Assembly: GCA_019055375.1 (NCBI GenBank)
Contig: JAHQIW010005159.1
Location: 1-64,000, forward strand
Length of the DNA: 64,000 nt
Reading direction: 5' to 3'
DNA from: Parelaphostrongylus tenuis
Lineage: Eukaryota; Nematoda; Chromadorea; Rhabditida; Metastrongylidae
Every line of letters begins with the position of its first letter. The stretch's first letter is position 1. The notes below the pieces were generated by a model. It searched no databases. It saw only the letters and a list, made by a program, of their open reading frames with translations, and was not told the origin of the DNA. Of this stretch, positions 9,101-63,111 are shown piece after piece. The position numbers and the translations under genes were made by a program.

Positions 9101-10380
9101 AAAAGTCGATTTGCCGGTTGATAATGAGCCAGAAAAATTTAGGGTCACTGTATTGGGAGGCATGACTCTTCCTGAAAACGCGAGCTCTATTAGAACTGAT
9201 TCGGAGCTTCTCATCCGTGCAGCCCATTTCTAAAGAAACGTTGCGGGATCGCGTGCAATCTGCACCAACTTCAAGTTTTTACCTCGTACGTTTCTCAGAC
9301 AACAAGAACCCAACGATGAAGTTGATTTTATTTCGCAAATTTTCAACCGACACTCTCAAATCGCTCATTCACTATTCGTCGTAAGAAACTAAGACCCAAT
9401 CTCACAGCCACACAAAAATGTGGTTTACGTAAGGTCCGAGAACTAATAAGATCTGAGACTACCAGACTATCAGTTAGTGGTAAAGGCGGGAGAGTTTGTT
9501 GTAATCCCTCTCGGGTGGATGTCAGTATAACGGAAAAACATCTAGAAGACAGTTCCCTGTACTGCTCATCGTCTGTGAAGGAATTTCGAAGTCAATACCG
9601 AAAATTCAAATACGGATTGGGCCCAATTGGCAAGAGCAGCAGGCTTAAAGCCACTCATCATTACACAGCTCAAAATTGGCCAACCATCATGTCCCGTCCT
9701 ATATCTACTCATAAAGACTCACCAGTTAACTTCCAATGAAGGCGAAATGCGAGTGAGACATAAATTTCTTTCTGGATGATACAGGGTTATTAGGTCTGTT
9801 TTAAACAACCGGCTATGTTCAGTTGTAAGTAGAGATTTATGCTTTCGAAGAATCACAAGTAATTCTGTGAAAATTGTCTGTTCAGTGTATGAGAGCTCAA
9901 AATTTGTCACTGCTTAACATACAAATACCAATATTTCTTTCACGCTTAAGCATCTTCCACTGGATAAAGGTTTCATTCAGATTTTCAATAACCATTCAAG
10001 AGCGAAAATCTCATAAATCTTAGTGATAAGCTTGATTTTAGAGAAAGACGTTTTAATGTGCTGTTACAACTAAAAGCTCATTAAGTTTCGTACTCAACGT
10101 CATGCCACTAGCGCAACGCAATTCACATGTGGCTTCCGGTGCGCGCCTAGTGTGAAGCTCAATGTTCTTTTAGCTGTAACAAGGAGCTAAGAAGTCTTCC
10201 ACAATAACCAAACATATTCTCAAAATTTTCAAGTTAAATTTGCCGAGATTTGTGTTGTCGAAGATCTGCTGGATTTTTTGAAGATGGCGTTGCTCATCGA
10301 ATAATGCTCAAGTGTTAAATAACATTTTCTTTTCCCTGTTACATGTAATACAGAGACCTCTCATAAGATGAAGTACACCT
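6183..10380. other. No recognisable gene; some old repeat traces
   Basis: No gene is supported. Around 7000-7190 there are traces of the dispersed R1 repeat seen better elsewhere (an ACTAG...TAGTAGTTATG...ATAGCTTGAG stretch in reverse orientation). The rest shows nothing I recognise. Confidence 0.4.
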
Positions 10381-11560: not shown

Positions 11561-11869
11561 TGAGGTCTTTGATTGAGGTCAAATTTTTTTGAGCAGTATT
11601 CAGTCAAAAATGGATAATGAGTCTATGCATTCGACGTTGTTATCCATTTTGATTTTCTTCCAGTTAAACGAGAGGAAGTGAAAGGACAAGTGAAGTCCTA
11701 CCATTAAGGCGTGGGCACAACCCTCTACCCCCAGCTGCTGCGGGCTAAAGACGGCTGATCATCCGCAGTTTCTCTCCATGCTTAAAACCGTGCTGCTGTA
11801 GCACTGATGTAAACTTCCTCATTCAACGAATAAAATCAACGATAGTTGATCACTCTAAGGAAAGGTATA

Positions 11870-12165
11870 ATATGATAAAAATACCAGCCAGCGAGCAATC
11901 GAGTGCGAAAGCACTCTGTGTAAGGTGAAAATCTCGCTTGATGTAGAGTCTAAAACGTTTGTCTTCGATAACTCTCTGTAAGGGAGCAGAGCTTCCGAGA
12001 GAACTGACTTCAAAACTATCGAAAGACGGCGGGTTCTGCCCGACTGACGAGTCTGTAAAGACGAAACACGTGTTTCGGGCTGTACAAGGGCCCTTACCAG
12101 ACCACATGACAAGTTGGCTCACATAATAATGAAAGGTTTTATTGAAATTTGAGCGTGGTCTTAAT
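11870..12165 (+). repeat. Ribozyme repeat family C, copy C1
   Basis: Single unit of a dispersed repeat also present at 18690-19360, 30425-30560 and 61915-62520. Shared blocks in order are ACCAGCCA.CGAGCAATCGAG, CACTCTGTGT, a hammerhead core, CGGGCT.TA.AAG, CAGACCACATGACA and GAGCGTGGTCTT. It has no conserved protein-coding frame; minus-strand open frames across it (11850-12230) are chance. Confidence 0.75.
12038..12080 (+). ncRNA. Hammerhead ribozyme, type I, minimal stem III (family C)
   Basis: Every core element is visible. Stem I pairs GCCCGA (12038-12043) with UCGGGC (12075-12080), 6 of 6. The core is CUGACGA (12044-12050). Stem II is GUCU-GUAA-AGAC, perfectly paired with a GNRA loop (12051-12062). 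GAAA follows at 12063-12066. Stem III is two pairs (AC with GU) around the loop ACGU. The cleavage triplet is GUU, so H17 is U and cleavage is expected between 12074 and 12075. Hammerheads tolerate any base at position 7, so C48 is acceptable. Activity is inferred, not shown. Confidence 0.85.
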
Positions 12166-12339
12166 AAAGCACTTGAAGGAAAGGTATCAACGATAGTTCT
12201 ATTTTTATATGACATTGTTTTCTTTTTCACTTGTCATTTACGGTGGGCGTTGGAATCCGTACTGTTAACAGAACTTAGAGAATTAGTGGGCACTGTATAT
12301 TCAATTCAAGCGCCATATATGTACAGTTAGAATCACCCG

Positions 12340-18529: not shown

Positions 18530-18806
18530 ATCCAACGGTGGGATCCAGTGGGTGAATATCTAATGTGATAGCAGTGGGGTCACTACTGATTGTATATGGT
18601 CAGAATCCCTTAACCGCGATGGTGGAGCCGAGCATTGCCTAAATGAGTTCGCTCCTCCACGAAAGCGCTGTGTTCCGCTCACAATTCTTTTGAGTTCCTT
18701 TCGTTTCGAATGTTTTCTTAAGACCACAGCTCAAAATTCAATATGCCTTGCAATCATTTTTGAGCCAGGCATGTCAGTGGTCTGTCAAACAGGGCTGACT
18801 TTTAGA

Positions 18807-18849
18807 GCCCGATACACGTGTTTCGATCTTGCGATCTCGTCAGTAGGGC
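18807..18849 (-). ncRNA. Hammerhead ribozyme, type I (family C, copy C2a)
   Basis: On the minus strand: stem I GCCCUA (18849-18844) with UCGGGC (18812-18807), one mismatch; core CUGACGA (18843-18837); stem II GAUC-GCAA-GAUC fully paired with a GNRA loop (18836-18825); GAAA (18824-18821); stem III AC-ACGU-GU; cleavage triplet GUA. All catalytic-core bases are intact, so this copy is a good candidate for activity. Confidence 0.85.
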
Positions 18850-19256
18850 AGTTACCCTTTCTCGTCTTTTGCTAATCTCTGTGGGTGCTCCAGTCCCCAC
18901 ACTAAGAGTTAGCAACGACGAACGCTTTACACTCTATGTCCAGTGAAAAACTCACCATCGTGGAAAACTCACGTGTATCGGGCTCTATAAGTCAGCCCTG
19001 TTTGACAGACCACTGATATGCGTGAATCAGAAATGATTGCAAAGCATATTATATTTTGAGCTGTGGTCTTCAGAAAACACTCGAAACGAAGGTTATGATA
19101 TATTGAATATACTAGCCACGAGCAATCGAGTGTACAACACTCTGTGTTTGGTGAGTTTTTCACTGGACATAGAGTGTAAAGCGTTCGTTTTCGCTAACTC
19201 TTAGTGTAGGGACTGGAGCACTCACAGAGATTAGCAAAAGACGAGAAAGGATAACT

Positions 19257-19299
19257 GCCCGAGTGACGAGATCGCAAGATTGAAACGCGTGTATCGGGC
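19257..19299 (+). ncRNA. Hammerhead ribozyme copy with C3 lesion (family C, C2b)
   Basis: Stem I GCCCGA/UCGGGC (19257-19262 with 19294-19299) is perfect. Stem II GAUC-GCAA-GAUU pairs with one G-U. GAAA, stem III AC-GCGU-GU and the GUA triplet are intact. The core reads GUGACGA instead of CUGACGA, changing C3, which pairs with the catalytic G8; self-cleavage should be lost or very weak. Confidence 0.75.
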
Positions 19300-19364
19300 T
19301 CTATAAGTCAGCCCTGTTTGACAGATCACTGACATGGGTGGCTCAAAAATGCAAGGCATATCTA

Positions 19365-24614: not shown

Positions 24615-25289
24615 GTATTTTATTTTCTAAATGGCTTTTGTATTTTGTTGTAATAGTAAAAACAAGATATTATTTCACTCAAGCCGCTGTTTCTGAACAC
24701 GAGACTTTATTCAGATAGTAAGCAACCGATCGACGGGAGAAATCTAAACAATTTCAGTGATGTGCTTGGCTTTCAAAAAGGACTTTTTATTGCGTTGTTA
24801 CTTCTGAAAGAATAGTGGGTGGTGCGCGCTCGCGCTGTGTCGATCGCAGCATGTATGGTCATTTTTGGCAAAATACTTATTGTTCTTTGATTTCTATTCA
24901 CCATAATAACTCTTGGGTTTTCCATTGGCCTAGGGAAGATCAAAACTAAAAATTTTTACTGTTATCTCCTTTTTACAATGCAATACAACTGATGGAATGC
25001 CAAATCCAGTGTTATTGCGTAATAAACCAGTATTCTTCTCTACACAAGATACATATATCTGAGCTAAAAACACATGAGCGAATGGAGAAAATCTTGTTCT
25101 ATCAAGGTAATGCAAGAATTCAAAAATCTTTGTGCAACGGAGAAAACTTCCATTAAACAACGCAATTGCGCAGTTCGCTTAGCGCATCAATTTCTTAAGC
25201 TGTTCCTCTGAGAATAAACATTGTTCGCCCTTTCAACCTTTGCCAATGGACATGCTCACGGAATTTGCATGTTCCATATTTCTTTAGTC
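24615..25289. other. No recognisable gene
   Basis: Old repeat traces continue to about 24800 (GTTGT.A.AGTAAAAAC). The rest up to the RTE insertion shows nothing I recognise. Confidence 0.4.
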
Positions 25290-25304
25290 ATACCTTTCTA
25301 TTTG
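25290..25304. repeat. Target-site duplication, 5' copy
   Basis: ATACCTTTCTATTTG, identical to 27424-27438, directly before the RTE insertion. Confidence 0.9.
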
Positions 25305-25308
25305 CGGC

Positions 25309-25338
25309 TTTAGCGGCTTTCAGCCTAAAGCCGCTAAA
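25309..25338. repeat. 12-bp perfect foldback at the RTE 5' junction
   Basis: TTTAGCGGCTTT (25309-25320) and AAAGCCGCTAAA (25327-25338) are perfectly complementary with the 6-base loop CAGCCT. The right arm is element sequence (AAK codons of the linker), so the left arm is an inverted duplicate added at the truncated end. Confidence 0.85.
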
Positions 25339-27415
25339 TTCAAACAACGAAGTCCCAGAACTACCATAAACTGGGATGTATTCAAATCATTAGTCGGCTC
25401 TTGGGAAGATACCGTTGTCGACAACAACGACGAAGAATACGATCGACTCGTTGAATATCTTCACGTTGGCGCTAAAAAAGCCGAAAGTTCTAAGGTCACG
25501 AAGAGACGCTTGTCTCCGCAGACACTCGAGCTGATACGTCAACGTGGAATCGCACGAGCCGCAGGCAACCGAAACCTTACGTCCGAACTTGCGAAACGAT
25601 TCAGAGAAGCGATAAAAGAAGACCTTAAAGAGAGAAGAGCAGCAGTTATGGCAGAAGCTGCAGAAGCTGGGAAGAGCATTCGCAAAGCCCAGCGAGGCTT
25701 CGCCAACTATAAGACCAAGATGATTGCACTCCGATACCCTGACGGGACACTTACAGCTTCCAGAAGGGCTACGGAGAAAATCATCCACCAGTACTACTCG
25801 GATCTCTTCGCTAGCCATGTTCTCTTACCGTCATATAAATTGAAAGAGGACGAATATGTCGTTCCACCGGTCCTTCCTTCCGAAATCCGACATGCTATAT
25901 CGTCGGTGAAAAACAGAACAACACCCGGTCCAGACAGGATTAGACCAGAACACCTGAAGAACCTGCCGCCAGTTCTCATCAACACCCTGGCTCGGCTCTT
26001 CACTCGCTACCTGTCAGAATGCAAGGTCCCTATTCAATGGAAAACCAGCAAGACCGTATTGTTGTTCAAAAAGGGAGAGCTTCACGACATAGGCAATTAT
26101 CGCCCAATCTGCTTGCTGTCCGTTGTTTATAAACTCTTTACTCGAGTCATCCTGAACAGGATTGACAGAACACTGGACGAAGGACAGCCATGCGAACAAG
26201 CAGGGTTCAGAAAAGGATTTAGTACCATGGACCACATCCACACGATCACAAGACTCATTGAAGTTTCGCGAGAGTACAAACAACCACTCTGTCTCACTTT
26301 CATCGATCTGAAAAAAGCCTTTGATTCAGTGGAAACAGAAGCGGTTATAGAGGCTCTGGATAACCAGGGCGTCCCTACTCGGTACATAATGATCCTTCGT
26401 GAGCTTTATAAAGATTTCACGACCAGAATATCTCCATTCTACAACAATATCACAATTGACGTAAGAAGAGAGGTTCGACAAGGCGATACAATATCGCCAA
26501 AACTATTCACTGCCACCCTACAAAACGTCATGCGAACATTAGAATGGGACGAAATGGGAGTGAAAATTGACGGTCGACAATTAAACCATCTTCGCTTTGC
26601 TGACGATATCGTTCTCATAACACCAAACATCAGCCAAGCGGAACGAATGTTGACTGATTTCGATAACGCCTGTGGAAAGATCGGTCTTCAACTGAATCTA
26701 ACGAAAACAATGTTCATGAGGAACGGATGGGTTTCTAATGCCCCATTCACGCTCAACGGAACGACAATTTCCGAATGCTCCAGTTACATCTATCTAGGTC
26801 GTGAAATCAACATGATGAACGACCTAGCCCCAGAGTTGAGCAGGAGGAAACGAGCGGCTTGGGGAACGTTTAAGAGCATCGAAGATGTAGTGAAGGACTG
26901 AGAACATCCGACTCCATGCCCACCTTTACGACTCGACAATTATCCCTGCCCTAACGTATGCAGCAGAAACCTGGTCGCTACGTAAGCAGGATGAAAGATC
27001 ACTTGCCGTTATCGAACGCGCAGTCGAAAGGTCGATGCTAGGAGTGTCTCGTATTTCGCAAATGAGACAAAGGATCCGAACTTCCGACCTACGTCAACGA
27101 TCGAAAATCAGAGACGCCGTTCTACACGCCAGGATATCGAAAATAAGGTGGGCCGGACACGTGATGCGCTTCAACGACAACCGATGGACGAGAGCCGTTA
27201 CCGACTGGATTCCTCGGGACGTCAAGCGCTCTAAAGGAAGACCACTGACCCGTTGGTCCGATTTCTTCACGAAAGCGATGGAAGAAAGATATGATGCTCA
27301 GCGAATTCCTAGAGCAAGGAGGACCCACTGGGCTACTCTTGCACGCGATAGGGAAAAATGGAAGAGTTGCTGGTACCCGCTCGAGTCACTCGACGATCAA
27401 CGGGACGACAGGTGA
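25327..27415 (+). pseudogene. RTE reverse transcriptase (C-terminal two-thirds of the polyprotein), frameshifted
   Basis: The frame is open from the junction to 26901, with the first Met at 25510. Visible reverse-transcriptase landmarks are TPGPDRIRPEHLK (about 25920-25960), NYRPICLLSVVYKLF (about 26095-26140), the first catalytic Asp in FIDLKKAFDSV (about 26299-26331), RQGDTISP (about 26476-26500) and the catalytic FADD at 26596-26607. After EDVVK a net +1 shift puts TGA at 26899-26901. The sequence then continues in the next frame through AETWSLRKQDERSLAVIE and the 27035-27415 frame, which carries GRPLTRWSDFF and ends LESLDDQRDDR. So one indel separates an otherwise long reading frame. The enzyme would copy its own RNA at a nicked target; here it cannot be made whole. 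Confidence 0.95.
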
Positions 27416-30045: not shown

Positions 30046-30424
30046 ATTTGATGGTCCGTCTTCAGTAGTTGTGCGGATCCCAGCACATATTCCCAATGGT
30101 ATATTGCTGGTCGTGCTTATAGTATTCCTTGGTTTCCTGACATAACCTTTGCAAGGGCTTTTTCAGTTCTTCATGATGTCGTTTCCAAGGAATGGGTTTC
30201 GCGGACGGATCCTCGCTCGGGCTTCCTACTACTTGATTCGGAGCTGGTGTTAGGCCGAATCAAAAGCAGAGGTTGGAAAGAAAATCAACCGATCGCTCAC
30301 GATTTATGTAGATTACATCTACATTATTATAGACAATAATATCAATGATAATAATATCAATTATACTAATATTGATGAGCATATAAACGTTGATACTAAT
30401 ATCAATGACTAAATGAACAGTGTT

Positions 30425-30560
30425 CCACAATCGATTGCTCCTGACTGGTATTTGTGAAATATCATACCTTTCGTTTCTAGTGTTTTCTCAAGACCACGTA
30501 CAATTTTCACCATGCCTAATAAAACGCTTTTGAGTCATGCATGTGGTCTGTTATGTTGTT
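30425..30560 (-). repeat. Ribozyme repeat family C, partial copy C3
   Basis: Matches the minus orientation of family C: CGATTGCTC..GACTGGTAT, CCTTTCGTTTCTAGTGTTTTCTCAAGACCA, then CATGTGGTCTGTTATG. The stretch where the hammerhead should follow is not recognisable. Confidence 0.6.
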
Positions 30561-32439: not shown

Positions 32440-32690
32440 CATATGATACGACAGTATCATGGAGTATGTGATGCAGGATTTAGAGGTTTCGTGCCATACA
32501 CGTTATCGATACTTCGATCTCGTGCCCAAGGTTCACCAAACCTACTACTCTGGGACCAGTGCATTGGGATCAGACTTGTCTATGAGGATAGAACCCATCA
32601 TTTGATACATCGTTAGGCCACCGCGATTAGTGTGAAGGCCAGTTTACATTCCCAAGACCAACTATCGATCAACATCACCATTCTACAATC
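32440..32690 (+). mobile_element. Degenerate S1 SINE
   Basis: Eroded head (ACTTCGATCTCGTGCCCAAG), then GGTTCACCAAACCT, TGGGACCAG, CAGACTTGTCTATGAGGATA and AGGCCACCGCGATTAGTGTG, which follow the order of the S1 body at 61155-61450. Confidence 0.6.
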
Positions 32691-33204
32691 ATATCTTGTT
32701 TTTTGTTTATATGCCAAAAGCGAGTTTGCTACAATACGATTCGTTCGATAGGCTAACGCATAGTTTTGCCTTTCTCAGAGCATAGAAAGAACAGGTTGCT
32801 CACAACCCAATCAGCCAGGCACCTGTTTGAGCCGCTTTGTGCAAAAAAAAAACAATTTTCCGACATTTCCACGGTTTCCTTATGAGAAGAGTGTGATGGG
32901 AGTGGAAGATTAAAGTGGTGAGTATGTTGGAAGGTTATTTTGTGCATATTGCAATTGAAGTTTAGGTTTGGTGAGATTTTCTGTTGAAGCAATGAAAGTG
33001 TCTGGCTAACTAATCTGTGAGCAACCTGATCTGTTCATGACGCTACGTTTGTTTAGTACTTCCTAGTAAGTTGCTAATGTTGAGAGTTGTCGCTGTCGCT
33101 TCAATACTCATTTTGGACTCACGTTCTAAAAGCGTAATGGCTTTGCATCGAACAACATTCTTCCCGTATTCTAAAAGAAATATAAAGTGTGCAAACGCCA
33201 GAAT

Positions 33205-33339: not shown

Positions 33340-35475
33340 CGGTAAAAAGCAGTTAAGTAGAAAGAGTTCTTGTCGATCACATAAAACGCCATTACCAACA
33401 AGCGAGAAATGCGCATTGATGTGATTCATAACATGAACACATATATCTACGAGTTTAATCCAATATTAAACGAAAATTTCAACAATGCATAAATCGCCAT
33501 CAAATTTTCAGCAACAAAATATTTTAGCGCAATCTACAGATTTTGCCGAAAGCACATTTGATATTTATACGAGCATCAGCAGTGACATTGCAGAAGTCGA
33601 TAGTGATTCTTATCATTATTCGAGTCGGATTACGTCAGTTTTCAACGGAAATAAACGAGACAGCTTGAACAGCAGATAAGCTGCTTTTCAATATCAAGCT
33701 GATAGAGATTTAGAACTGGAAATCTATGACAAATTTGTGAAAACATTTTATTTTGTCTTTACAATCAATATCAAATCATTTTGAGAACCTTTTGTTTACC
33801 TCACTATCTTTTATAATTCATAAAGCCTTCGTTTTACTTAAAAAAAAACTTCATTTTGTTCCTCAAAGCGGAGTATACACTTATCGGATTAGTCAGTCAT
33901 AATCTCACCAAAGCTCTCTTTTGCCACTGTTTGGAAGGAGATAAGCACGGAGAAAGGAAGACCGATAATTTAGTGTCTTTTGAGTTATTGTCAAAATACA
34001 TAAGTATAAGAGCGGTGTTTCGCATCATCCGAACACGCTCTCCATTTGACTAACATCTTGCAAACTTTACAAAATTTATCTCCTGTTCTAACTTAACTTA
34101 TAACTTTCCATATTTGAAAGGCTAGCGAACACTGTGCATGAAAAGGGATTTGCCAATTTATAAGTACAATTCCTCTATGGAAGTGAAAGTTTTCAACAAT
34201 CGTGCAGTGTTCAAGCGAAAAGTTCAGCTTTTCATAGTGGTTCATCACCTTGTCGGATGAATGAGTGTTTGATATATGTCGCTATTTAACATCACGCGCA
34301 TCACTAGCCAGTCACACTAAGCGGCTTTGATCATAATGAAGGCGCGAGAATTTTCTTGTTCATTTACTCACAAGGCCCAGCTCGAGAGGAAGGGTTTTCT
34401 AGCCTGGGGCGAAGACCAGCAAGTGTCTGTATGTAAATTGAACGCATATTTAACCACTGCACTTCACGCTCATATTTGTAAATTGCAAAGACCCTATTGT
34501 ACTAGTGATACTTCATTAGTTTTTTTGTAGAGTGCTTCACGAAAGGATGATGCTTAAATGATACATTGAAGAAATGAGGTCAAAGGTAGGGTATTCACCA
34601 TTGTGGATTAGTCAACTAAGTCATTTTTCATACATCAATTGAAACCATAAAATATCACTGAAAAGATTTAATGCGAATAGTGTTATTCAGTCGCCTATTT
34701 ATGCATCATACGCTTGTGTGGTAAGTGCGGAAGTTGAACAATGGCAGTTATAAGCAAGTGAACTCAGTTGGAATGTGCTTGCTCACTCCCACCATTTTGA
34801 GTTATGGCAAAATCAATTTTTATTCTGAATGTGTCTTCGCTACGATTCTACATTTATAGTTTCTAATTCTGTTATTTCGAACCAACACATCTTTTGTCAA
34901 CTTTTTCCTACTTATTTCGATTTCCATCAATGATATATCAAGTTCACTAAATTGTTTTGTAAAAGCGTGAAACTCCAATATTATTTCATATCCTAATGAA
35001 TTATGTATTTACGCGTACACTGCAATATTTGAATGACTTGTCTTTACGAAAATTGCGACTAGCTCTACTTTAGTTCACACTTGACTGGCAATATGCTGAT
35101 TTTAAAGATTTTCTTCTAACAGGTGCTCAAAAAAAGCCATGCTAGGACTTGTTAGTTATATACTCTTCGCTAAACTTCCGGTGGAAATCATCTAGTCGTT
35201 CTTAGCGGAAGTCTGCTGAATGAAATCCAGTCTACATCGTAGTTCAACAGAGGAATGTTAGGAACAAATTGAATGATATCTAAACCACATTTAAGAAATT
35301 CTTATGTATTCTTGCTCGGACTCTAAACTGAAATAACATCAAGAAGAAAAGAACTGTTGTCGTAAACAAGAAAAATTGATTCAAACAAATTTTTTTTCTT
35401 TGAAGTAACTCCCATGACCGACTATCAATTAATCTCGGCATCGATTGAATACCTTCTTAATTTTCTTATTCAGCA
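33340..35475. other. No recognisable gene
   Basis: Short open frames at 33485-33679 and 34327-34530 have no recognisable motif or convincing splice sites. The block CCGACTATCAATTAATCTCGG at about 35417 recurs at 49233, showing an old dispersed repeat. Confidence 0.4.
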
Positions 35476-35479
35476 AGTG

Positions 35480-35590
35480 CGAGGTTGTTTGCAAAACTTC
35501 CGCTTCAGGCGGGACTCGAACTCACATCTCACTATCCGGGAGCGCGTTCACTAATCCGCTGCACTGCTGGCGCCCATTTTGCACGCCGAG
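35480..35590 (-). mobile_element. tRNA-like SINE, family S2
   Basis: On the minus strand: CAGTGCAGCGGATTAGTGAACG (A-box-like), ATGTGAGTTCGAGTCCCGCC (B-box-like), then AAGTTTTGCAAAC. It sits inside the repeat that starts near 35415. Confidence 0.7.
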
Positions 35591-48589: not shown

Positions 48590-50145
48590 TCATTTTAAAT
48601 ACATAACTTAGGCACAAGTAGCGTAGGCTAAAGGTGTCTTGCAATACGCATATGATCTTTGCTTCAATCTTGCTACGAGGAATAACCAAGCCATTCATTC
48701 GTACAACCTCGCTAAAGTGGCACTACCTTTGTCTAGGATTATGACTACATTGACTTTGTAAGTCAACACACAGTAATGATCTATTGAATCTGCATTTCAT
48801 CTCTACGATGCTATAAATGGCATACAGCATGGTGCATCTATGGTTAGCAATTCAGTGAAAACATTTCATCCTTTTTCCTATATGGAAGCAATCACACATT
48901 CCGTTTACATAATGTACAAACCCGTCTTGACGGTACTGTACTCTTGAATGTCAAACAAAAATATCGATAGCAAGATATAGAAACAACGCTGCCCAAATTG
49001 ACAGCGACTTTGACATTTCTATCAAGAAGCTCAGCTTAGAGTGAATCAGTTGAAGGAATCGCTATCTTTTTGCAAGAAGTTCACTCCCACGCTAATGAGC
49101 TTCTTTTCGATTGACATAAGTTGAAATCTTCCTCCTGGGCTAGTAAAACTCAAAAATAATTCTGATCACGTATGATTTGATTGGAAATTATGCTGCACCT
49201 GCCGGCCATGTTTTCTAGTTTGTAATAAATATCAGACCGACTATCTATTAACCTCGGCATAATTTGAATATATGAATATTTTCTTCTCTTTAGCCTTTCC
49301 GAGCTGTTATTGATATTCAAAAATATTCATACTTTCTATGTTTGTAGCCACTTTATCTAATATTCTATCGCAGCTTGTAGGAGACTACATTATTCCAAAG
49401 AACAAATGGAATTCACACGTTTTTCGCCAATTTATCACAGTGAACTTTTAGACTTTTGCAGGTTTTGTAATTATTTTGATGAACGATTTGGCTAAAACGG
49501 ATCTCTTTTAAATATAGATCATTGTGCTCCTCGAAAAAGCTGCAATCTCAATAACTAAAAATTTCGCGTAAAACTTTTCACGACAAGTTTAAAGAAAAGT
49601 TAATGTCCCAGAGAGCAGCAATTGAAACGATTTGTGACAAAGGCTGAACTTATTTGATGAGAGCCATCAGTCATCATTGCTCAGTTTGCTCCATTTGTGT
49701 CAAAAACTGTTACTTGGTTTAACTATTATACGGAATGGAAGGTTGAGTGAACTTAACCACATGATTTTGCAAATAAGGAAGACAACAAGAGCTTATGGTA
49801 TTCAATACATATCCAGAGAAATAACTTCCACAAATTGATACGGACCGATAAACATCTAAAGGCACCACAACGCCATTTCAGAGAAAACCCTAGTACGGAA
49901 ATACCATGTCACCAAAGAGTGCGACATAAACATTTGACATGTTTTCTAGAAAGAAGAATGATGCAAGAAAAAACAAATTAGGACAGAAATTTCTTTCCAT
50001 ATTTCTTTGAAAAACAAATAGGATAAGTTTCTTATTCCTTTTACCTCTTTGTCTCTCTGTATTTGCCTCTTTCTCTCCATCTTGCACTTCCTCTGCTTCC
50101 TCATCAGAGCACGAGTTTCACCCTCTGTGATCACACGGTAAAGTG
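48590..50145. other. No recognisable gene
   Basis: The block at 49233-49310 is homologous to 35417-35490 (an old dispersed repeat). Nothing else is supported. Confidence 0.4.
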
Positions 50146-60600: not shown

Positions 60601-63111
60601 CAACATTGTGGTCTACAAGAAAGTCTACCGCAAAAATGTTTTAAAGGTAACATTTCAAGTAATTAGATTTGGTAATAGGCTCTGGAAGAAAGCGACTTGA
60701 TATAATTTATTTTCAAGTCACTGGCAACTCCTAGTCTGCCCCTACGAAGTTGACTGCGTTACCCTTACTTCTTTGTGTTGAGGTCTACAGAGTGTTAGGC
60801 CTGACCAATTCTTTCAAAGTAAATGGAATATCCCCTTAAAATTTCTACTTTCATTTGAAGGGTTTGGTTTGCTTGAGTCTGGCAGTGTTTCTGCTAAGGA
60901 CGAAGTGAACATAATGGTGAAGAACGTAGTGGACGTGGTATTCGGTGGTCTCTCCTATTGGAGCCTTGGGTACGGTCTCAGCTACGGTGATTTTGAGCCG
61001 TTTCGCAACAGTTTCATTGGATTCGGGCGCTTCTTTTACGATCCAACAAGGTGAGCATTGTCAATTCACAGCATGTGATTTGTGCACTTTGAAATTGTTA
61101 CACATTCTCGATAGTGCTTCTTATCCATTATTTTTTTGCAGTATTACATTTGATAGAGCGCATGTGGCGCAGTGGTTAGAGGTGCCCTGCGTCGCACACG
61201 AGGTCAATGGTTCGATCTCGCGCTCATGGCTCACCAAGCCATCCATCCCTCCGGGGTCGGTAAATTGGTACCAGACAGGTCTCACACTTGTCTGGGAGGA
61301 TAAGCAGCACTGACTCGATTCAGCGGGAGGCCACCGCGATTCATTGTAAAGGCCAGATATGCATTCAATCACCTCAAACGAAGTTAAAATTGAAGTCGAA
61401 TGCATGGCGCATCCCTCAGGGATTGATCAACGCCGAGAGCTTTATCCTTTTATTACATTTGATGAACATGGAATATCATTACATCAGCAAGGAAATGTTA
61501 GAACCGAGTCTGTATTTAGTTGAGGAGTTGCCCACCAGAATTGGCGACTCCTCTTTTCGCGAGATCGAACCATCGACCTTATGTGCGACTCAAGACACCT
61601 CCAACCACTGCGTCACATGCATTCCTAGCTCCTATATGTATATACATAAGTTAAACGCACTGAAATGAGAGTATTCTCGTTCGTAGCGTGGACCATCCGA
61701 CATAACCTTTTGAAGACCAACGTTGATAGTCAGGCGGATAGCGCCGCTTGGGCTCAAGCGGCTTTGCATGCCTCTGCATGCATGTCTGGCTGTTTGCCTT
61801 CTTTGCCACAAGACGCGACACCGCCATCACGGTAGCTGAGTGAGATTTGACATCGTGCGGTAGGCATCAAAGTGTTCTCATGGTCCATAACTAGTTAGTG
61901 ATACAGATCTCGCTATTATTTTTTGAGCCAACATGTCATGTGCTCTGCTAAATGGGCTGACTTATACAATCCGATACACGTGTTTCAATCATGACAGTCT
62001 CATCAGTCGAACGGTACCCTTTCGTCTTTTGCCAATCTTCTCGGGTGCTCAATCCCTATACCAAGAGTAGGCGACGACGAACATTTTACACCGTTCATTA
62101 AGTCAAATTATCACATGTTGGCTCAAATAATAATTATGTGATATGTTGAAATTTGAGCGTGGTCTGTAGAAAGCACTCGAAACGAAAAGTATGATATACT
62201 AACGATACCAGCCAAGAGCAATCAAAGATTGTGCAACACTGTGCGTTCACTGATAATTTCGTTTGACATACAGTGTGATACAGTGTAAAATTTTCGTCCT
62301 CGTCTACTCTTAGTATAAAGGACTGAGCGCCCGAGAAGATTTGCAAAAGACGAATGGTAACTGACCGACTGTGAGACCGTCAAGTTCGAAACATGCGTGT
62401 CGGGATCTGTAAGTCACCCCATTTAACAGACCATATGACATGTTGGCTCGAATAATAGTGGCGAGATATGTTGAAATTTGAGCGTGGTCTTCAGAAAACA
62501 GTCGAAACGAAAGCTAACGATACACCGGTGCGACCCCGCATCGTACCCACCAAACCCATTTCTCCGGTGTCGAGAAATCTATACTAAAGTGTATAGAATG
62601 AGGTCAACTCTTCCAGTCCACGAAATATTGCCTTAATACGACTCTTCAACGATTCCTTTGAAATTTCGATTGGTATAGCATTTGAAGATATTGGTCACAA
62701 AAAAATTCTCAAGCAATACCGAACAATCCGGCAAGGTTGGTGGTTGACAGCTAACATAGAGATGTTGAGTAATGAGTGGTGACGCGAATGTACCTCGATG
62801 GTGTAGTGGTAGCACACGTCCCCGTTACGGATGGGACGCGAGTTCGACTCTCTTCTGAGGTCGTAATTTTGCTCACCGCTCAATTCTCTAAGGGATATAT
62901 GAAACATCATAACACTTCGAAAAGTGCAGTAAAATATTAGAAATCTGTAATACTGACATTTATTTAGTAACTCTGTAGCACTGATTAAAAAAATCACCAA
63001 GTGACTTGTATCATTACAGAGATGTGAGCACAGTGAACGAAGAAGGGTGGGCGTATGCAGGATTTCTTTTCCAGCTTAGTTTAGCAACAACAGCGTCTAC
63101 AATTGTGTCTG
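54577..63111 (+). CDS. amt: Ammonium transporter (Amt/Mep/Rh family), 5' part of the gene
   Basis: Amt proteins are trimeric membrane channels that move ammonium/ammonia across the plasma membrane. Four exons give 148 residues, roughly the first third of a usual 450-500-residue protein; the rest lies beyond the window. Residues 37-62 form the first membrane segment (DDAVWIV...FGLLESG), 69-97 contain NVVDVVFGGLSYW and the GYG motif, 104-117 NSFIGFGRFFYDPT, and 127-148 the next membrane segment ending ATTASTIVS. These are family hallmarks. All splice phases agree: exon 1 ends after one base, exon 2 fills two and ends after one, exon 3 fills two and ends after two, exon 4 fills one. The ATG at 54577 was chosen because a stop precedes it in frame; 54589 is an alternative. 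The twin-histidine pore lies downstream and cannot be checked. Confidence 0.9.
54709..54819 (+). CDS. amt: amt exon 2
   Basis: Starts after GTTTCCAG and ends before GTTTTGC. Encodes TEVDKLYQDDAVWIVTSS and FIIFTMHS, the first membrane segment of Amt proteins. Phase 1 at both ends. Confidence 0.9.
55095..55480 (+). pseudogene. mariner transposase remnant, N-terminal half
   Basis: The frame reads YRNLLLYGYELRRSAQTAFE, then FVSRKAAF, KATEEDLTLNAKELAT and GCGHATISKI, the paired helix-turn-helix DNA-binding region of mariner transposases. The usual start ATG is GTG here (55095). A TGA at 55404-55406 and a frame change follow, after which GQWIPHELTQA gives the WIPHEL linker diagnostic of mariner. 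The catalytic D,D(34)D domain is absent; R1 repeat sequence replaces it. The 5' leader (about 54975-55095) is homologous to 63470-63572 of the second copy. Confidence 0.85.
55500..58300. repeat. R1 dispersed repeat array
   Basis: Many diverged R1 units spaced by about 150-200 bp: GCACTGGTAGTGATCGTTCGATAG (split by mismatches) near 55710, AACGCGCGACACGTGTGAAGC (56228) and AACGCGTGACCCGTGTAAAAC (56375), AATATGCGCGATGTAACGCTC (58149), and GCGCTGTAA blocks between. The units are 3' of the mariner fragment. No coding capacity. Confidence 0.55.
60861..61050 (+). CDS. amt: amt exon 3
   Basis: Starts after TTTCATTTGAAG and ends before GTGAGC. Encodes FGLLESGSVSAKDEVNIM, VVDVVFGGLSYWSLGYG and FIGFGRFFYDPT, unmistakable Amt sequence. 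Confidence 0.95.
61142..61154. repeat. SINE S1 target-site duplication, 5' copy
   Basis: TATTACATTTGAT, identical to 61451-61463. Confidence 0.85.
61155..61450 (+). mobile_element. Full-length tRNA-derived SINE S1 (reference copy)
   Basis: Flanked by a perfect 13-bp duplication, which fixes its ends. The head has TGTGGCGCAGTGGTTAGAGG (A box, 61163-61182) and CAATGGTTCGATCTCG (B box, 61205-61220), the internal promoter of RNA polymerase III, but lacks a complete cloverleaf. The body holds CATGGCTCACCAAGCCATCC, CCTCCGGGGTCGG, TTGGTACCAGACAGG, GAGGCCACCGCGATTC and GAATGCATGGCGCATCCCTC. The tail is GAGCTTTATCCTTTT. Its mobilising partner is unknown; the RTE family is one possibility. Confidence 0.85.
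61451..61463. repeat. SINE S1 target-site duplication, 3' copy
   Basis: TATTACATTTGAT, identical to 61142-61154. Confidence 0.85.
61540..61630 (-). mobile_element. S1-type SINE head
   Basis: On the minus strand ATGTGACGCAGTGGTTGGAGG and GTCGATGGTTCGATCTCGCG match the S1 promoter region; the downstream body differs or is deleted. Confidence 0.65.
61969..62012 (-). ncRNA. Hammerhead ribozyme copy (family C, C4a)
   Basis: On the minus strand stem I GUUCGA/UCGGAU pairs over six positions with two G-U; CUGAUGA, GAAA, stem III AC-ACGU-GU and triplet GUA are intact. Stem II (GACU...GAUU) is weakened. Stem I has changed on both strands yet remains paired relative to GCCCGA/UCGGGC. Confidence 0.7.
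62363..62405 (+). ncRNA. Degenerate hammerhead (family C, C4b)
   Basis: The layout is recognisable (GACCGA, CUGUGAG, GAAAC, AUGC, GUG, UCGGGA) but A6 is deleted from the core and H17 has become G, so it cannot cleave. Confidence 0.6.
62795..62905 (+). mobile_element. tRNA-like SINE, family S2
   Basis: GATGGTGTAGTGGTAGCACA, CGCGAGTTCGACTCTC and CTGAGGTCGTAATTTTGCTC give the S2 order. Acceptor-like arms (ACCTCGA / TCTGAGGT) partly pair, but the T arm has only three good pairs and the anticodon loop is ten bases, so I do not call a tRNA. Confidence 0.6.
63020..63111 (+). CDS. amt: amt exon 4
   Basis: Starts after TATCATTACAG and ends before GTTAGT. Encodes DVSTVNEEGWAYAGFLFQLS and LATTASTIVS. 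The last base begins a Gly codon completed by an exon outside the window. Confidence 0.9.

Follow-up and report, generated by a model that had tools for sequence, protein, structure and literature searches.

The window, by which we mean the whole stretch of 64,000 nt of Parelaphostrongylus tenuis DNA that was analysed, carries at 11848–12185 on the plus strand a retrozyme-like element of 338 nt, C1 (locus L039 of the genome sample described below), which consists of one arm only, its 3′ end being of type B. The element is flanked by a target-site duplication, ATCAACGATAGTT, the left copy of which (11835–11847) is identical at 13 of 13 positions to the right copy (12186–12198). C1 comprises one monomer of 319 nt plus about 19 nt that are read twice (self-repeat 11851–11868/12170–12187), and on the monomer map (positions prefixed m) it runs from m96 to m113, or 337 nt. 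A circular fold places a predicted hairpin, H1 (m25–87), at 12099–12161 on the plus strand, and the apical loop of H1 (m60–63, about 12134–12137) coincides with start site A of other copies.

At 12038–12080 on the plus strand C1 contains a type I hammerhead ribozyme motif (Rfam RF00163), and the layout ascribed to it in the initial annotation is present in every part. Stem I is GCCCGA/UCGGGC with six of six positions paired (12038–12043 with 12075–12080), the core is made up of CUGACGA (12044–12050) and GAAA (12063–12066), stem II is GUCU/AGAC with a GUAA loop (12051–12062), and helix III with the GUU site (12067–12074) is ACAC/GUGU, effectively two pairs closed by ACGU. The features of RF00163, namely the conserved core CUGANGA, GAAA and UH together with three stems, were thus all found, and cleavage would be expected between 12074 and 12075. 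The covariance-model check proposed earlier gave an Rfam Hammerhead_1 score of 33.5 bits (E value 1.6e-4 for a search of 64 kb with 4227 families), but this score lies 0.5 bit below the curated gathering score of 34. Judged by its sequence, 12038–12080 is a genuine type I hammerhead motif. A loose hammerhead text pattern was discarded as evidence; it gave 24 matches against 11.6 expected, and 4 of 100 shuffles reached 24.

Two further elements in the window (18.7–19.4 kb and 61.9–62.5 kb) are inverted pairs, a point absent from the initial annotation, and in both a minus arm is followed head-to-head by a plus arm. C2 (18697–19361) has its minus arm at 18697–18956, with the outer end at m110 (site B), and its plus arm at 18970–19356, with the outer end at m62 (site A); in C5 (61903–62516) the outer end of the minus arm (61915–62114) is at m56 (site A) and that of the plus arm (62110–62516) at m112 (site B). 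No convincing target duplication was found for C2 or C5. It had been claimed that four further hammerheads keep the layout of the first, and this holds with one stem I mismatch for the C2 minus arm (18807–18849, minus strand; Rfam 25.5 bits) but not for the other three: the C2 plus arm (19257–19299, plus strand) has a decayed hammerhead with GUGACGA (C3 to G) that would be expected to be inactive, the hammerhead of the C5 minus arm (61969–62012, minus strand) is decayed with a weak stem II, and that of the C5 plus arm (62363–62405, plus strand) is broken, with the core CUGUGAG. Rfam reports none of these three as a hammerhead up to an E value of 10. Of the paired changes in stem I claimed among the window copies, our reading found some in 61969 only. 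Because two cores are dead, one stem II is weak and one stem I is mismatched, the five window copies represent, as far as their letters tell, a family in decay of which one member is nearly intact, and this is less than had been claimed.

The minus arms of C2 (at 18956) and C5 (at 62114) begin at the same monomer position, m169–170, and a C-family fragment without hammerhead, C3 (30405–30584, minus strand, by blastn; 30419–30509 maps to m69–m160), ends at 30419 near that position, at m160, inside a predicted hairpin. From the predicted fold, the m160–170 region is possibly a site at which the RNA breaks or pauses. An Rfam match to MIR8007 over C5 (35.4 bits, threshold 195) was rejected, as it reflects just the inverted repeat itself, and a tRNA match of 37.4 bits lies shortly beyond C5 (62792–62862).

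The window also contains relics of Penelope-like elements (PLEs), the candidate helper class. A PLE reverse transcriptase relic lies at 9117–9749 on the plus strand (tblastn with the ORF of the PLE L081, E 1e-18); this was the only match of the PLE ORF in the window, and there was none inside the window C elements. A pLTR relic lies at 2361–2666 on the minus strand (blastn, 77 %, E 2e-46), two more, minus then plus, lie at 32648–33037, and further PLE relics are found at 35396–35485 and 49234–49329. An RTE-type reverse transcriptase occupies 25288–26901; the ten best relatives of its stretch 25288–26898 are 75–80 % identical, and nine of them are named as Ancylostoma, Necator or Haemonchus, in keeping with a strongylid-like nematode.

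Hammerhead repeats of families C and S

The genome searched was the assembly to which the window belongs (481.5 Mb, 5105 contigs). Two repeat families of similar layout were distinguished, family C with a monomer of 319 nt (44 % G+C, for C1) and family S with a monomer of 284 nt (44 %), and monomer G+C content ranges from 0.41 to 0.44. Searching with RF00163 gave at least 31 matches, 20 of them above the gathering threshold, from the best 74 of 119811 first-look candidates scored, and all the matches listed map to family S. With C1 as query there were at least 41 matches including C1 itself, from the best 40 of 4296 first-look candidates scored, the others being 89–94 % identical in the main match. 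The sample consists of 75 classified copies, 45 of family C (39 loci, C1 included) and 30 of family S (29 loci). The C loci are the best matches to C1, and as this 338 nt query ends at site B, their choice favours long arms that end at B; subfamilies like C2 and C5 are under-sampled in the C set; the S set was chosen by Rfam hammerhead score, and both the S set and the A ends are free of the C1-query bias. Rows were dropped for L068 (the same element as L061), L072 (a near copy of L070), L012 (a near copy of L011) and clusters with fewer than 100 aligned bases, and 13 clusters under 80 % identity were retained.

The hammerhead is spanned by 74 arms of family C (39 loci), in 51 of which the core is intact, 36 of these having six stem I pairs. 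In family S there are 52 such arms, 36 with an intact core, including 29 with six stem I pairs. The proposal of a type I hammerhead within an interspersed nematode repeat is thus supported by relatives throughout the genome. The cleavage-site triplet, GUU in C1, is most commonly GUA in family C, where the commonest hammerhead sequence (12 of 74) carries GUA. Stem I is GCCCGA/UCGGGC in family C and GUGCUA/UAGCAC in family S, that is, the families differ by paired changes. In a set of 97 distinct hammerheads drawn from both families, pairing is found in 528 of 582 stem I cells, whereas 1000 shuffles gave 429 on average and 458 at most; this covariation is mostly the difference between C and S and is measured against shuffles that ignore relatedness. 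The covarying stem changes for which the initial annotation had looked to genomic copies do therefore occur, mostly between families. A MAFFT alignment was abandoned for this purpose because it misplaced stem I columns, and stem I was therefore counted from the sequence ends. Sm-alpha is a Schistosoma repeat with a type I hammerhead, and the core in family S resembles that of the schistosome ribozyme.

By reading of circular single-monomer folds, hairpins H1 to H4 are predicted to precede the hammerhead in both C and S. With 60 shuffles each, the z score of the fold was −4.0 for S, −2.3 for C1 and −5.3 for C2, and at −0.5 the C5 monomer folds no better than shuffles; hammerhead stem I is absent from the circular minimum-energy folds of both S and C1. 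At one locus, L023, four S hammerheads stand in tandem with a spacing of 284–285. This S array (L023, 1940–4056) appears to be inserted in a PLE reverse transcriptase gene, pieces of which flank it.

Paired arms, end sites and target duplications

Head-to-head pairs account for 52 of the 75 clusters; 22 have one orientation, one is plus–minus–plus and none is tail-to-tail. The two outer ends of a palindrome lie at differing sites, one at A and one at B, in 29 of 30 cases in family C and 20 of 22 in family S (49/52 in all, the exceptions being L049, L010 and L038), and the window palindromes C2 (m110/m62) and C5 (m56/m112) also follow this rule. In family C, A ends fall at m37–79 (median 62) and B ends at m103–127 (median 117), and in family S at m18–58 (median 42) and m74–100 (median 94), these intervals having been defined after inspection of the ends; the median offset between A and B is 56 nt in C and 52 nt in S. 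Apical loops are predicted at m60–63 and m114–125 in C1 and at m36–42 and m87–115 in S. For family C, 20 A ends and 28 B ends, out of 29 each, are no more than 6 nt from a predicted loop; for family S the counts are 13 and 17, out of 20 each.

The inner junctions are scattered along the monomer, with a gap or overlap of no more than 12 nt in 45 of 53. Arms exceed one monomer in 11 of 44 cases in family S and in 7 of 31 A-arms in family C, as well as in 28 of 31 C B-arms, a figure favoured by the choice of loci. Because S arms and C A-arms outrun one monomer, some templates were circular or multimeric. The ribozyme cut is no more than 8 nt away from 10 of 106 inner ends, against 5.6 expected, a weak excess at most; insertions would therefore not require cleavage, and uncut multimers would serve. 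The two arms of an S insertion have a median identity of 92.7 % against 83.0 % between insertions, and exceed the between-insertion median in 14 of 16 cases; for C the figures are 92.4 % against 91.0 %, and 14 of 19. The common minus-arm start of C2 and C5 had suggested that a master palindrome is copied as a unit, which we rejected because the inner junctions scatter.

Target duplications scoring at least 10 flank 36 of 73 elements, compared with 47 of 5242 mismatched flank pairs; the flank test used 73 of the 75 clusters, two being too close to the locus edge. Among palindromes such duplications were found for 20 of 29 in family C and 9 of 22 in family S, and among the remaining elements for 2 of 14 in family C and for 5 of 8 S singles. 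The duplications are 10–20 bp long, with 31 of the 36 at 10–15 bp. Of 72 duplication edges, 24 have the motif RTT directly outside (11 ATT, 13 GTT), compared with one to nine at eighteen other offsets; the motif was first noticed in these data and then tested on them.

Penelope-like elements and a proposed route of insertion

Searching the genome for the GIY-YIG domain (PF01541) gave at least 150 matches, all above the cut-off, from the best 150 of 1723 candidates. Among the matches listed, 22 pairs of neighbours lie within 6 kb, of which 20 are head-to-head, one is minus–minus, one is plus–plus and none is tail-to-tail. One head-to-head PLE, L080 (1599–6849), has a frame of 893 aa and arms of 2159 bp that are 99.8 % identical, so that it is probably a recent insertion; its right arm is 46 nt longer, and a 12 bp duplication, AGAGAGTATTGA, was read by eye. 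In L081 an open frame of 902 aa lies between direct repeats of 320 bp, with a 14 bp duplication also read by eye, and the ORFs of both elements bear RVT_1 and GIY-YIG. Each 320 bp repeat of L081 shows a hammerhead-like text pattern (CUGAAGA, GAAAC, GUC); neither L080 nor L081 has a hammerhead match in Rfam up to an E value of 10, the 'minimal hammerhead' there being a text pattern. Comparison of the ends of L080 and L081 with the retrozymes gave no sequence link beyond chance-level matches and, as the two share no clear sequence, the link between PLEs and retrozymes rests on their scars. PLE relatives were found among proteins of Necator, Ancylostoma, Haemonchus and Caenorhabditis nigoni. The RTE of the window has 96 further copies with 99 % amino-acid identity among the matches listed, and is therefore a young expansion. 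Among the 97 listed RTE copies there is not one pair closer than 6 kb, which is a weak control because the best 97 of 30253 candidates were scored, compared with 150 of 1723 for GIY-YIG.

We have high confidence that the repeat is a retrozyme and, arguing from the shared scars, good confidence that a PLE is the helper; taken together, it is quite probable that the repeat is a retrozyme of a nematode and that it moves through PLE-type priming on the two DNA strands. We hypothesize that the element is non-autonomous, with an RNA unit of roughly 319 nt in family C that includes the type I hammerhead. By analogy with other animals, multimeric transcripts would cut themselves at the hammerhead into monomers, which would become circles and serve as template. 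A Penelope-like reverse transcriptase/GIY-YIG endonuclease would then take the RNA as template, and the PLE RNP would make a staggered cut of both DNA strands at RTT, mostly 10–15 bp apart. Each freed DNA 3′ end would prime reverse transcription at a separate place on the RNA, near the H1 loop (A) for one end and near the H2 loop (B) for the other, and from the predicted folds we infer that these loops may act as docking sites. The two cDNAs, some of which would pass round more than one monomer, would be joined where they meet, the outcome being a head-to-head double copy with a variable junction and a target duplication. In a more specific version, on which our opinion is almost evenly divided, one circle with two docking loops, A and B, would be engaged by a dimeric Penelope-type RNP, with one DNA end each, and the two cDNAs would chase each other round the circle. 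If this were true, head-to-head insertion would be no accident but the normal PLE-type product, and retrozymes would be parasites with an obligate dependence on PLEs.

Inverted arms flanked by duplications are also what a foldback or MITE-type DNA transposon would leave, the arms being its terminal inverted repeats, the movement transposase cut-and-paste and the hammerhead a passenger. The termini are, however, unequal, A differing from B by about 52–56 nt, instead of identical inverted repeats, and because of these unequal ends we regard such a transposon as extremely improbable; in addition, the inner junctions scatter, some arms exceed one monomer, the duplication length varies between 10 and 20 bp, and duplications also flank some copies of a single orientation, among them C1. 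Palindromes could otherwise be formed by self-priming of the cDNA on an antisense template instead of priming on two strands, which, in the partial text of PMC3846280, its authors favour for the head-to-head PLE copies of Adineta vaga. Self-priming would not account for the 49 of 52 palindromes that combine an A end with a B end, and it accords poorly with outer ends that both lie at start sites and beside the RTT cut and with junctions that vary, with the small gap or overlap seen in 45 of 53, so that we hold this reading to be rather unlikely.

Twin priming by LINEs yields 5′ inversions, and the youth and abundance of RTE in this genome, with its 96 further copies, would favour RTE or another LINE as helper, the inversions then being ordinary twin priming. 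For LINE-1 such inversion is a minority outcome, and to our knowledge LINE inversions are generally so and never copy the same RNA region twice; moreover, none of the 97 listed RTE copies, a thin sample, is paired within 6 kb, and the RTT cut and the A/B ends match a PLE, which makes a LINE helper distinctly unlikely. The hammerhead might also be a chance or relic motif without a role in what is an ordinary SINE, and it is true that two of the five window copies are core-dead and that a need for the cut is not evident from the insertions. Against this, the core survives in 51 of the 74 arms of family C and in 36 of the 52 of family S, and stem I has been preserved through paired changes between the families; we consider a motif without a role very improbable.

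Two-strand priming by a PLE therefore seems to us the better account, and PLEs may be the movers of such ribozyme repeats in animals. According to the accessible part of a review (PMC7761336), metazoan retrozymes have no motif that reveals their autonomous mover and PLEs are likely candidates, and LINEs or PLEs are named as the movers in an extract of another review, PMC11722881; the later steps of PLE-type insertion are unvalidated (PMC11167929). With ends that pair A to B, cuts at RTT and a scar that resident PLEs share, the guess of a PLE mover becomes a claim that can be tested, and the copies of C and S are a record, in large number, of how PLE-type insertion works. In the literature examined, part of it as extracts, no report of nematode retrozymes was found, and no priority is claimed. 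Among the titles and abstract openings surveyed there was no retrozyme with inverted arms.

Relation to known systems

The initial annotation had named retrozymes as a related class, and the repeat fits that class by monomer length, G+C content, helix III and target duplications. C1 (319 nt) and S (284 nt) combine a unit within 150–450 nt and a low G+C content with a type I hammerhead; direct tandem copies are present in L023 and in long arms, C1 itself having none, and insertions are dispersed with target duplications, as counted above for 36 of 73 elements. The metazoan non-LTR retrozymes of Cervera & de la Peña (2020; PMC7229834), described as direct tandem repeats in the portion of that paper available, share with the present elements a type I hammerhead that has a tetraloop and a helix III of two pairs, a unit in the range 170–400 nt, low G+C content (0.41–0.44 here), duplications of more than 4 bp, tandem arrays (L023 here) and the presence of PLEs in the genome. 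They differ in that most copies of our sample are inverted pairs, the arms standing head-to-head and ending preferentially at two sites, and the words 'inverted' and 'nematod' are absent from the available text of PMC7229834. The Schistosoma W elements are likewise type I hammerhead repeats of a worm parasite, with a likely target duplication at one W, but are presented without paired A/B ends in the excerpt of PMC8490949. In the 5′ inversion of LINE-1 by twin priming, too, two DNA ends prime on one RNA and give an inverted structure, whereas the arms of C and S often both copy the same region.

The C and S elements contain no ORF with reverse transcriptase and GIY-YIG and are therefore not PLEs themselves, yet they resemble PLEs, in the available parts of PMC3846280 and in PMC11167929, in head-to-head repeats, cutting at ATT, an internal start in a stem–loop and the extension of both strands. 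Head-to-head terminal arms, as in pLTRs, a tail at one end and a short duplication occur in C and S and likewise in the PLE L080. The Penelope elements of Adineta vaga have an inverted pLTR at one end, duplications of 8–10 bp and an optional tail of 31 bp, as given in the extract of PMC3846280; the duplications measure 12 bp in L080 and 14 bp in L081, and the one-end tail, for which 30–40 bp is cited in PMC11167929, is 46 nt in L080. That tail is the stretch separating two start sites (PMC11167929), and in C and S the corresponding distance from A to B is 52–56 nt, unlike in PLEs. The Poseidon PAc protein, whose cuts fall at ATT on either strand, extends both strands and starts internally in a stem–loop; its starts are not homologous to the cut DNA (PMC11167929). 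Whereas PAc shows no difference in start between the strands, the two ends of C and S insertions nearly always differ, so that A and B are paired more strongly than one would expect from PAc, and the geometry of the RNP on a small circle may be the cause.
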